A stretch of DNA of 42,571 nt, taken from Erysipelotrichaceae bacterium (GTDB lineage Bacteria > Bacillota_I > Bacilli_A > Erysipelotrichales > Erysipelotrichaceae). The notes under the pieces are model-generated. The model saw nothing but the letters and a program-made list of their open reading frames with translations, was not told the origin of the DNA and searched no databases. Shown piece by piece: positions 38,084-41,935 of the stretch. A program made the translations under genes and the position numbers. Position 1 is the first letter of the stretch; each line of letters opens with the position of its first letter. The stretch spans positions 1-42,571 of the forward strand of contig JAJOHZ010000048.1 of the NCBI GenBank assembly GCA_021209625.1, given 5' to 3'.

Positions 38084-39004
38084 ATGGATATTTACCAGCT
38101 CAAGTATTTCTGTGCCATTATTGAATCCGACTATAATATTTCTGCTGCGGCAAAAAAACTTCATGTTTCTCAACCCGCTTTAACCCAAGTGATTAAGAAG
38201 TTTGAATCCGATGAAAAAATTGATCTCTTCATTCGACAACAAGGTCGTTTAGCTGGCTTAACCCCTCAAGGAGAATCCTTTTACACCAATGCCACTAATG
38301 TGATTTACCATCATGAACGCATGATGAAAGAGTTAAGAGAACACTCGACAAAAGCAAGAGGAAAGATACGCATTGGTATTCCTCCTCTTGTGTTAACCGT
38401 ATTGTTTACCGACATCCTATCCAAATTAGTGATCACAAACCCAGATATTCAGTTTGATATCATTGAAGAGGGAGCATTTGAACTCCAACGAATACTTAAG
38501 CTTCAAGAAATCGACTTTGCGGTCATTTTACAACCGACTGATCTTAATAGTATGCATTTTAAAGAAGAAGTCATCTTTGTAGAGGAAGTGTGTTGCTTCT
38601 TATCCAAAGATCATACTTTAGCTAAAATTAAGAACACCATGGATTGGAGTGATTTAAAAGAACAAAATCTAGCCATCTTCTCTAGCACCTTCATGATTCA
38701 TCATCAGCTCATGAGAAAATTTGAAAGTTTAAACATTGTTCCTAAGATTGCACTGATGTCCACCTCATGGGATTTCTTACTCGAATCCACCTTAAACTCT
38801 GATTTCATCACGGTTCTTCCAGGACCGGTTAGAAATCACATTGTTAAGGACCGGATTAAAGAAATGAGATTCACAGTGCCTATGCCTTGGAAAGTGGTCT
38901 TAACCTATCCTAATAAATCTCATTACAGTCGTATTGAGACGTACACTCGAGATAGTATCTACCATTACTTTCAATCCAACAAACCCATCGAACCCATTCA
39001 GTAA
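38084..39004 (+). CDS. LysR-family transcriptional regulator
   Basis: MDIYQLKYFCAIIESDYNISAAAKKLHVSQPALTQVIKKFES. Confidence 0.95.
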   Translation: MDIYQLKYFCAIIESDYNISAAAKKLHVSQPALTQVIKKFESDEKIDLFIRQQGRLAGLTPQGESFYTNATNVIYHHERMMKELREHSTKARGKIRIGIPPLVLTVLFTDILSKLVITNPDIQFDIIEEGAFELQRILKLQEIDFAVILQPTDLNSMHFKEEVIFVEEVCCFLSKDHTLAKIKNTMDWSDLKEQNLAIFSSTFMIHHQLMRKFESLNIVPKIALMSTSWDFLLESTLNSDFITVLPGPVRNHIVKDRIKEMRFTVPMPWKVVLTYPNKSHYSRIETYTRDSIYHYFQSNKPIEPIQ

Positions 39005-39056: not shown

Positions 39057-39085
39057 TTGCATTCTTTTTCATGATTTGTTACACT
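39057..39085 (+). promoter_or_regulatory. Putative promoter for the leader/TrpXYZ-like operon
   Basis: TTGCAT N17 TACACT. Confidence 0.5.
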
Positions 39086-39111
39086 TCAAAACAAGAAAGG
39101 ATATTAAGATC

Positions 39112-39165
39112 ATGACCAATCACAAATCTTTCCATGTGTCTTCTTATTACGGATATTATCACTAA
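39112..39165 (+). CDS. Tyr-rich leader peptide MTNHKSFHVSSYYGYYH
   Basis: 17 codons with clustered TAT TAC GGA TAT TAT CAC TAA immediately before nested inverted repeats and a terminator. Confidence 0.6.
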   Translation: MTNHKSFHVSSYYGYYH

Positions 39166-39168
39166 CTA

Positions 39169-39282
39169 GGTTTATATCACATTGTAGATATAGACCACTT
39201 TATGTTGGAAATATCTACGATTGACACAATACACAAGAAATCTCTTTTATTGGCCACGCGTAGATGCGTGTTTTTTTATTTT
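39169..39282 (+). promoter_or_regulatory. Transcription attenuator (serial alternative stems + terminator) upstream of the ABC transporter
   Basis: A GGTTTATATC (39169-39178) pairs B GATATAGACC (39187-39196); B GTAGATAT (39184-39191) pairs C ATATCTAC (39211-39218); C ATCTACG (39213-39219) pairs D CGTAGAT (39259-39265); terminator CACGCG-TAGA-TGCGTG-TTTTTTTATTTT (39255-39282). Confidence 0.7.
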
Positions 39283-39302
39283 ATCCCCCTTGAAAGGAAC
39301 TA

Positions 39303-40283
39303 ATGATGACTAAATCACTTAAAGCCTTAGTGCTACTCACTCTATCCCTCACTATGCTTAGTGCATGTGTATCCACGCCTCTACCCAACGAAGAAGAAAC
39401 CTTCACCATTGGAGTGATTCAACTTGTCACTCATCCTGCTTTAGATGCAACACTAGAAGGGCTTAAAGATCAACTTGAATCTGAAGGCAAATCAAACGCC
39501 ATCACACTGATTGTTCAAAATGCTCAAGGTGATCCAAATGTTGCTAATACCATCGCCCAGCAATTTGTCAGTGATGGTGTAGACTTAATTTACGCCATCG
39601 CAACCCCCGCTGCTCAAGCTGCTCTTAATGCCACACTGAACACTTCAATTCCTGTGGTTTTCAACGCTGTTTCTGCCCCTGTGAGTGCTGGTCTTGTCGC
39701 TTCACTTGAATCCAGTGGAAACAATGCTACAGGCATGAGCAATGCTGCACCACTTCAACCACAACTTGAACTTGTTAAAGAAGTGCTTCCTAATACTCAA
39801 AATATTGGTTTTTTATTCAATTTAGGTGAAGTGAATGGTCGTGTATGGATTGAAGAAGCCCAACGTATTGCCCCTCTATTAGGTATGAATGCCGTGGTGA
39901 TTGGCATTACCAATCTTTCTGAAGTGGCAGCTGCTATGGGACAACTGTTACCTCAAGTGGATGCAGTCTTCAATGTTACTGATAATCTTGTGGCAAGTGC
40001 CACTTCACAAATTGTTGATTTAGCTAAACAAGCTAACAAACCTGTGTTTGGCTCTGATCCTACCTTACTCCCTCAAGGACTACTTGCGGTGGATGGGGTA
40101 GATTTCTTCGCCTTAGGTCAAAGTGCTGCCCTACAAGTCATAGATATTCTCTTTAACGATAAGCTTCCATCTGACATCCCGGTCGGTACACCCACTTCAA
40201 CTCGTTTATTTGTAAATCAAACAATGGCCCAAGAACTAGGAATTACGTTCCCGCAAAGTGTTCTTGAACGTCTAAGCGAATAA
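39303..40283 (+). CDS. ABC transporter substrate-binding lipoprotein, TrpX-like
   Basis: Lipobox LSAC; FTIGVIQLVTHPALDATLEGLKDQL...DPNVANTIAQQFVSDGVDLIYAIATPAAQAA. Confidence 0.9.
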   Translation: MMTKSLKALVLLTLSLTMLSACVSTPLPNEEETFTIGVIQLVTHPALDATLEGLKDQLESEGKSNAITLIVQNAQGDPNVANTIAQQFVSDGVDLIYAIATPAAQAALNATLNTSIPVVFNAVSAPVSAGLVASLESSGNNATGMSNAAPLQPQLELVKEVLPNTQNIGFLFNLGEVNGRVWIEEAQRIAPLLGMNAVVIGITNLSEVAAAMGQLLPQVDAVFNVTDNLVASATSQIVDLAKQANKPVFGSDPTLLPQGLLAVDGVDFFALGQSAALQVIDILFNDKLPSDIPVGTPTSTRLFVNQTMAQELGITFPQSVLERLSE

Positions 40284-40284
40284 C

Positions 40285-41226
40285 ATGAATTTCTGGCTCG
40301 ACGTCCTCATTCAAGGATTATTGTACAGTGTCCTTGCTCTGGGTGTAGCATTGACATTCAAAGTCTTACAACGTCCCGATCTTAGCGTAGAAGGCAGTTT
40401 CCCTCTTGGGGCTGTGATTAGTGCGATGGCACTGACTTCAGGACTTCCCGTTCCTATAGCCTTAATCATGGCTGCATTGGGTGGATGGTGTGCAGGTCAA
40501 TTAACAGCATGGCTTCAAACCAAGTTGAAGATTCAACCACTTTTAAGTGGTATCCTCACCATGAGTGCCTTGTATACACTCAATCTTATGATTGCAGGTA
40601 ATCGTTCTAACTTGCCTTTATTTCAAACCTTTACGTTGTTCACTCTCCCATCATGGATGAGTGTGTCATTAACCCGTTGGTATCATCTTTCACTTCTCCT
40701 TATGATTGTCTTCAGTCTTAAGTTATTGCTGGACTGGTTTCTACAAACTAAAAAAGGGATGATATTACAGGTTGCTGGTGATAATCCAAAACTTGTATCA
40801 GCACTTGGTGAAAACCTCAGTGCTTATCAAGCATTAGGATATTCACTTTCCAATGCCATCATCGCCTTGTGTGGAGCCTTGGTTGTGATGATGACACGCT
40901 TCTATGATCTGTCGATGGGATTTGGTATTCTTGTGGCTGCTTTAGCATCAGTGGTGTTAGGTGACTCTTTGTTATCTTCCACTGGTGCTAAGTTAACCAC
41001 CATGGCTATCTTTGGTTCACTATTATACCGCTTCACTATTGCCTCAGCTTTAGCACTGCGTTTACATCCTAGTTCATTAAGACTCATCACTGCCCTTATC
41101 CTTGTGCTTGCCTTAGTGATTAAACCTTCTTACGGTAAAACTATCTTAACGTCACTGAAAGGAGGAGATAATCATGTTAGTGCTTCAAGACATTCAAAAA
41201 ACATTTCACTTAAACACCCCAAATGA
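40285..41226 (+). CDS. ABC transporter permease, TrpY-like
   Basis: LLYSVLALGVALTFKVLQRPDLSVEGSFPLGAVISAMAL. Confidence 0.9.
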   Translation: MNFWLDVLIQGLLYSVLALGVALTFKVLQRPDLSVEGSFPLGAVISAMALTSGLPVPIALIMAALGGWCAGQLTAWLQTKLKIQPLLSGILTMSALYTLNLMIAGNRSNLPLFQTFTLFTLPSWMSVSLTRWYHLSLLLMIVFSLKLLLDWFLQTKKGMILQVAGDNPKLVSALGENLSAYQALGYSLSNAIIALCGALVVMMTRFYDLSMGFGILVAALASVVLGDSLLSSTGAKLTTMAIFGSLLYRFTIASALALRLHPSSLRLITALILVLALVIKPSYGKTILTSLKGGDNHVSASRHSKNISLKHPK

Positions 41227-41935
41227 ACAACCATTGTTTAAATCGTTCAATTTTAATGTTCAGGAAGGTGAATTTGTGGTGGTGTTAGGAAGCAATGGCA
41301 GTGGAAAGTCCACCTTACTTAATTTAATTGATGGACAATTGGCTGTTGATCATGGAAAGATTCTCTTCAATGATCAAGAGATGACTCATCTTCCTTCATT
41401 CAGGCGAGCTCAAAACATTTCAAGAGTGTATCAAGATCCTTCATTAGGAACCTCACCTCAACTAAGCATTGTGCAAAACATGAGTTTAGCACTGAACAAA
41501 GGCAAACCTTATAACCTCAAACAAGGAGTTGATTTAGTATCACGCACTCATATCGCAAGCATCCTTACTCAACTCAACATGGGACTTGAAGAGAAGTTGG
41601 ATGTCAAGGTTGCCTATTTATCAGGTGGACAACGTCAAGCTTTAAGTTTATTGATGGCTGTGGTGTCACACCCTAAGCTGTTGTTACTGGATGAGCATAC
41701 TGCTGCTCTAGATCCAAAAACAAGCCAGCACATCATGCATCTCACACAGCATTTGATTCGACAATTTAAAATCACCACCTTAATGATTACACATCAAATA
41801 CAGGATGCTTTGGCTTATGGTGATCGTTGCATCATGCTTCATGAAGGACACGTGGTGTTGGATGTATGTGCAGAAGCTAAACAACGCTTACAACCAAACG
41901 AACTATTGGCCCATTTTCATTCTCTCTCCCTATAA
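41174..41935 (+). CDS. ABC transporter ATP-binding protein, TrpZ-like
   Basis: LGSNGSGKSTLLNLIDG, LSGGQRQALSLLMAVVSHPKLLLLDEHTAALDPKTS; overlaps the 3' end of the permease. Confidence 0.93.
   Translation: MLVLQDIQKTFHLNTPNEQPLFKSFNFNVQEGEFVVVLGSNGSGKSTLLNLIDGQLAVDHGKILFNDQEMTHLPSFRRAQNISRVYQDPSLGTSPQLSIVQNMSLALNKGKPYNLKQGVDLVSRTHIASILTQLNMGLEEKLDVKVAYLSGGQRQALSLLMAVVSHPKLLLLDEHTAALDPKTSQHIMHLTQHLIRQFKITTLMITHQIQDALAYGDRCIMLHEGHVVLDVCAEAKQRLQPNELLAHFHSLSL

Follow-up and report, generated by a model that had tools for sequence, protein, structure and literature searches.

The window, here the whole 42,571-nucleotide stretch of Erysipelotrichaceae DNA that was analysed, comes from a metagenome bin that is 60% complete. 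Close to its right end it carries, in order, a LysR-family gene, a weak conserved promoter, a 17-codon leader ORF, five RNA arms, a terminator with a T7 tract and three transporter genes. The features are as follows:

38084-39004, same strand as the leader and directly upstream of it: LysR-family regulator gene (nearest NCBIfam model CidR, below cut-off)
39057-39085, forward: promoter read from the sequence, TTGCAT (39057-39062), N17, TACACT (39080-39085), with TGT before the -10
39094-39101, forward: Shine-Dalgarno sequence AGAAAGGA of the leader peptide, read from the sequence
39112-39165, forward: leader ORF MTNHKSFHVSSYYGYYH, with its stop codon, read from the sequence; sensing codons TAT TAC GGA TAT TAT
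39135-39140, forward: arm 1, 5' part, TGTGTC, pairing with GACACA at 39223-39228
39151-39157, forward: arm 1, 3' part, GGATATT, pairing with AATATCT (39210-39216) of arm C when the leader is untranslated
39169-39178, forward: arm A, GGTTTATATC, starting 3 nt after the leader stop codon
39184-39196, forward: arm B, from folding (GTAGATAT, 39184-39191, for C; GATATAGACC, 39187-39196, for A)
39210-39219, forward: arm C, partner of arm 1, B or D (ATATCTAC, 39211-39218; ATCTACG, 39213-39219)
39223-39228, forward: GACACA, 3' extension of C and partner of TGTGTC in arm 1
39255-39277, forward: intrinsic terminator CACGCGTAGATGCGTG (39255-39270) plus T7, formed by arms D:E, with compensatory changes in relatives
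39259-39265, forward: arm D, CGTAGAT, 5' side and loop of the terminator, from folding
39303-40283, forward: TrpX-like substrate-binding lipoprotein (PF04392, domain search), the regulated gene
40285-41226, forward: ABC permease (PF02653, domain search)
41174-41935, forward: ABC ATPase (PF00005, domain search)

The Tyr-rich ORF, arms A to D and the terminator with its T7 tract agree base for base with an earlier sequence-only reading of the locus, and the bases that it gave for the promoter are likewise confirmed. The promoter matches the consensus poorly and is missed by a promoter scanner, yet the -35/-10 pair, its 17-nt spacing and the TGn extended -10 are conserved in all five same-genus loci. 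The leader Shine-Dalgarno sequence is AAGAAAGGA in four same-genus loci and AAGAAGGGG in the fifth. The leader ORF thus has a start signal and a codon cluster for the amino acid of the pathway, and its translation is predicted; it ends in SYYGYYH and contains four Tyr codons, three His codons (positions 4, 8 and 17) and one Phe codon. Arms A and B form ten pairs, one of them G-U, B and C form 8 bp, and C and D form 7 bp, the last taken from folding as the search range of the automatic helix listing ended before the D arm of the window. Rfam has no match at the leader site, neither the T-box RF00230 nor any known riboswitch or leader family; the hits to STnc560, snR83, manA-II and ncr1241 fall below threshold and are attributed to chance.

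The 3' end of the same LysR-family gene also lies upstream of the leader in three same-genus loci (L002-L004), and its product may or may not regulate the transporter operon. The binding protein scores 249 bits against the TrpX model NF041285 (cut-off 390), and on its sequence it is a member of the TrpX superfamily (PF04392) and not TrpX proper. One window contig record (L066, JAJOJK010000021.1) belongs to a bin labelled Candidatus Woesebacteria, which is probably a taxonomic mislabel because its closest relatives are Erysipelothrix and Erysipelotrichaceae bins.

Conservation and covariation of the leader RNA

The element is present in four same-genus genomes (L002-L005), with leaders MTNQRNLFVISYYGYYH, MTNQISFHVSSYYGYYH, MTNQRNLFVTSYYGYYH and MNDLVNTALHQVNYFYFIFC respectively. 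The arms recur in 33 leaders, in every one of which A lies between -3 and +3 nt of the leader stop codon; the B:C and C:D pairings persist although the paired sequences differ, as in the C:D variants ATCTACA/TGTAGAT, AATCTATGC/GCATAGATT, AATGTAGCT/AGCTGCATT and AATGTGGCT/AGCCACATT. Paired cells in the alignment amount to 96% for A:B, 90% for D:E and 78% for B:C, whose register shifts in some species. Two-sided changes in A:B plus D:E number 50 compared with 15 in shuffles, a count matched in 0 of 500; a larger alignment set is 95.8% paired with 86 two-sided cells. Loss of the Tyr codons or of arm complementarity in relatives had been named as grounds for abandoning the attenuator reading, and both are conserved.

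A covariance model built from these leaders and then refined (R2) has matches in 58 of 273 Erysipelotrichaceae genomes, representing 15 of 60 genera, and in a class sample of 395 genomes the nine with matches are all Erysipelotrichaceae. One match (L209), at the 3' end of a gene, is a false positive. Judged from these alignments, conservation and covariation put the attenuator far beyond chance.

Ribosome position and terminator formation

The window contains a mutually exclusive antiterminator and intrinsic terminator: ViennaRNA folds A:B and C:D when A is free, and B:C and the terminator when A is masked, just as had been proposed. When a ribosome footprint is moved codon by codon along the leader, the terminator forms with a probability of 0.01 at Tyr codons 1 and 2, 0.04 at Gly and Tyr codon 3, 0.91 at the last Tyr codon and 0.98 at the final His and stop codons. 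None of 3000 dinucleotide-shuffled versions of the segment between leader and terminator (39166-39254) reaches a switch of this size (stop minus Tyr stall, 0.98 - 0.02), and the switch is stable for footprints from P+10 to P+17, with the boundary shifting by one or two codons only. In the folding model, then, terminator formation in the window depends on ribosome position. About a dozen of the 33 leaders (e.g. L003, L031, L037 and L061) keep a terminator probability of ~0.7 or above at their first Tyr/Phe codons at equilibrium; we assume that such leaders switch through co-transcriptional C:D pairing before E is made. In one leader, the second copy at L036, C:D is hardly visible.

The four-stem design first suggested is supported for A to D but lacks a sixth arm, a further segment within the leader codons (39135-39140 plus 39151-39157) that pairs with C. 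When the ribosome is absent, A:B and the terminator coexist in most leaders because leader codons pair with C; the terminator probability in the window is then 0.76-0.83. Arm 1 occurs at the same place in L002 and L004 (TTGTTAYT/GGTAACAA) and also in other leaders, as AGCGACC/GGTCGCT (L006), AATGAGC/GCTCATT (L076) and GGGAAGTTT/AAGCTTCCC (L054), and the match of each leader to its own C region exceeds that to the C regions of other leaders (0 of 20000 permutations). In a synonymous-recoding null, run on uncultured environmental bins only, the arm is significant in L005 and L006 and suggestive in L033 and L032; for the window alone 47 of 200 recodings are as good, which is not significant. Pairing of GGATATT with AATATCT would explain why Gly is conserved between the two pairs of Tyr codons. 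From the modelled folds we infer that the untranslated leader should also terminate through arm 1:C, less firmly so for the window alone.

With arm 1 included, the logic would equal that of the six-arm his type, in which untranslated leaders terminate, stalled leaders read through and finished leaders terminate. In an untranslated leader arm 1 would pair with C and A with B, and the terminator D:E would form. Under Tyr shortage a ribosome waiting at the Tyr codons would cover arm 1 and leave A free, so that A:B and C:D could form, D would be withdrawn from the terminator and the transporter genes would be transcribed. With sufficient Tyr the ribosome would run on to the stop codon, 3 nt upstream of A, and cover A, allowing B:C and the terminator to form. 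The E. coli his, trp and pheA leaders use three-state multi-arm logic in which stalling leads to readthrough and full translation to termination; the window would share this logic, but E. coli belongs to another phylum, and its leaders differ in sequence and are not in the same Rfam family.

Predicted sensed amino acids, paralogues and biosynthetic sites

The sensing stretch contains only Tyr in the window and its three closest relatives. Another same-genus leader ends in NYFYFIFC, and leaders of nearby genera end in FYFYFS or YYFYFYFR; Tyr and Phe make up 53% of the last nine residues in the 33 leaders and 63% in 26 aro leaders. Before TrpX-like binding-protein genes the leaders end ..SYYGYYH, ..SYYYYFS or ..SFFFFFR. 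A minus-strand leader upstream of a binding-protein gene (L029), MNKNENRSYYYYYYFRIMK followed by a stop codon, has six consecutive Tyr codons and a different RNA layout, and does not match the covariance model.

Arrays of two or three consecutive binding-protein genes are seen in E. tonsillarum, E. inopinata, E. anatis, E. aquatica and other members of Erysipelothrix, every gene being preceded by a separate leader: first ..SFFFFFR and last ..SYYYYFS, with ..RWSNKRIE between them in some species. A protein tree places the Trp-leader proteins in a single supported group and likewise the Erysipelothrix Phe-leader proteins; the proteins with Tyr leaders cluster with that of the window, and two with mixed Phe/Tyr leaders lie within this cluster. 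Distant homologues (Tissierellia, Peptoniphilus and other groups) are preceded by T-boxes, and such distant loci do match RF00230. The putative specifiers, taken from sequence pattern and not from structure, are for the most part TTC, TAC or TGG; by this reading, tandem genes in several Tissierella and Peptoniphilus genomes combine one Phe T-box with one Tyr T-box. The same labels thus appear in two unrelated RNA languages.

Several further features of these loci were observed. The Shine-Dalgarno region of Erysipelothrix Tyr and Phe leaders (e.g. L040, L042 and L054), GGTTGGG or GGTTGGT, is complementary to the leader codons CCCAAC or ACCAAC, and it is possible that this hairpin controls leader translation. 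The Trp leader, M..RWSN(K/R)RI.., lies upstream of the middle Erysipelothrix binding-protein gene (L054, L056, L058, L061 and L063), and the codons that follow its TGG form covarying pairs (CAAGCGAA/TTCGCTTG) with a segment downstream, enclosing a small hairpin. The switch of the other leaders is not seen in these Trp leaders, which have a strong terminator at every modelled ribosome position, and they could be arrest peptides. At L025 and L028 a mini-ORF with a Trp codon (MKRWCSSLFL and MKQTKRWCRQR respectively, each ending at a stop codon) lies between a Trp T-box and the binding-protein gene, perhaps as a second layer of control.

The best structural relatives of the window binding protein are 3lkv, 6hni and 3lft, reported with phenylalanine, tyrosine and tryptophan bound respectively (PMC6816091). 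CD0873 of Clostridioides difficile (6hni), which binds tyrosine (PMC6816091), is homologous to it; the window protein differs in having Asp at Glu-263 and Phe at Tyr-279, and a leader attenuator is not described for CD0873. Tyr, Phe and Trp binders of solved structure can be told apart by pocket residues, but these do not discriminate among the leader-labelled proteins, and in aligned segments the Glu-263 position is acidic in Tyr-, Phe- and Trp-labelled proteins alike. It is the codon content that would argue for Tyr over Phe.

The element also recurs, unsought, before genes of the shikimate pathway, and this is the strongest independent support for control by aromatic amino acids. Among 28 non-transporter sites inspected, 26 lie before aroB in other genera of Erysipelotrichaceae (L167-L174, L193-L205, L207, L208 and L210-L212) and one before a DAHP synthase gene (L206), and aroB is followed by aroC wherever the locus extends far enough. 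Each of the inspected aro and DAHP synthase sites has a Tyr/Phe leader (e.g. MNRTNNFYYFYFR, MKTVKYYYYYYFR and ..FYYFYFR). Two of the aroB proteins exceed the NCBIfam aroB cut-off, and the remaining ones match those two strongly. In the genus of the window aroB was found in 0 of 6 genomes, three of them at least 90% complete, so the genus probably cannot make chorismate and needs uptake. A lack of T-boxes does not explain the leader attenuator, since the genome of the window has 11 T-box matches elsewhere, mostly before genes that by eye resemble those for aminoacyl-tRNA synthetases; one, with a TGG specifier, precedes a gene for a small membrane protein resembling the tryptophan transporter TrpP.

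Interpretation and relation to known attenuators

The alternating-attenuator logic proposed from the sequence is supported by folding, covariation, paralogue-specific leader codons and reuse before aroB-aroC. We consider it very likely, from these models and comparisons, that the locus attenuates transcription through the ribosome, gauging charged tRNA-Tyr and possibly also tRNA-Phe, and controls an ABC importer of aromatic amino acids; that the ribosome really stalls, that transcription really terminates and what is transported are inferred. The substrate had been given as aromatic, probably tyrosine. The paralogue leaders and the aroB-aroC sites bear out the aromatic part, and the prediction is widened to Tyr, perhaps also Phe, because related leaders mix the two.

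Equal sensing of both, with the transporter a general Tyr/Phe importer, is rather unlikely: it would suit NYFYFIFC within the genus, the mixed endings of nearby genera and the mixed aroB leaders, but not the Tyr-only stretch of the window and its three closest relatives, nor the separate Phe and Tyr leaders on separate paralogues in Erysipelothrix. The His codons at positions 4, 8 and 17, with the single Phe codon, raise the alternative that histidine, or several amino acids, is sensed. With the modelled footprint, however, a ribosome at the last His codon covers A and gives a terminator probability of 0.98, although a shorter footprint would allow a partial role; the position-8 codon gives 0.34 and that at position 4 is further upstream. 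As the early His residues are not kept (MTNQRNLFV.., MTNQISFHV..) and relatives without His keep Tyr/Phe, such sensing is highly improbable.

The same arms could also be switched by an arrest peptide, with free tyrosine or another metabolite in the ribosome causing the stall in place of uncharged tRNA. Ligand-dependent arrest peptides are known, TnaC being an example, and the conservation of SYYGYYH within the genus and the single conserved Trp in RWSN(K/R)RI of the Trp paralogue leader fit such a mechanism. The C-terminal residues nevertheless vary freely while Tyr/Phe content is kept (SYYGYYH, NYFYFIFC, YYYYFS, FFFFFR and FYYFYFR), RNA pairing would account for the Gly codon, and ligand-favoured stalling would increase import at Tyr excess, which makes little sense for uptake; we regard this explanation as improbable. 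A plain promoter with a constitutive or processing hairpin and a chance ORF is scarcely credible: short ORFs and hairpins are common, but nothing specific points to it, and it runs against the covariation, the conserved position and codon content and the reuse before aroB-aroC.

Ribosome-mediated attenuation with a Tyr-rich leader was at first thought unusual in this setting. The mechanism is already published for the order, as His-leader attenuators of his operons occur in Erysipelotrichales (six species), Peptostreptococcaceae and the B. cereus group (PMC9413887), and the Tyr/Phe family is undescribed in the literature found. As described, the His leaders resemble the window in occurring in the same order, among others, in a short leader peptide with a run of sensed codons, in a terminator with an alternative antiterminator and in T-box control in relatives; they differ in sensing His before a biosynthetic operon, compared with Tyr/Phe before a transporter and aroB-aroC here. 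Among open-licence full texts on leader-peptide attenuators of Erysipelotrich- taxa that paper (PMC9413887) is the only one found, and an earlier description elsewhere is possible. A proposed upstream ORF with one or more Phe codons and a terminator, uORFC-13-1, precedes Acholeplasma aroF (PMC8632094) and shares with the window family its aromatic codons, its terminator and an aromatic pathway gene as target; it is confined to Acholeplasma and unassigned environmental sequences, whereas R2 has no matches outside Erysipelotrichaceae in the class sample. In Streptococcus suis the homologous trpXYZ transporter is likewise controlled by an RNA responding to amino acid starvation, there a tRNA-binding riboswitch, the T-box, for tryptophan (PMC9382623), while the window site has no T-box. 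The aromatic leader family of Erysipelotrichaceae is absent from Rfam, and we file the Tyr/Phe leaders as a new family within a known mechanism class, ribosome-mediated attenuation itself being classical.

A broader proposal, for which we find the case evenly balanced, is that one leader-attenuator family serves the control of aromatic amino acids in Erysipelotrichaceae, its codons retuned (Tyr, Phe or mixed) to suit transport and the shikimate pathway. Consecutive attenuators within one Erysipelothrix transport operon (Phe, then Trp, then Tyr) would choose which specificity subunit is made, so that the substrate of each binding protein could be read from its leader codons. For orphan aromatic transporters, a mini-ORF next door would in this way offer a substrate prediction through its codons. 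Two unrelated RNA devices, the T-box and the leader attenuator, would do the same job on homologous genes, and the leaders would form a natural series of retuned attenuators in which the evolution of control-codon choice may be tested.
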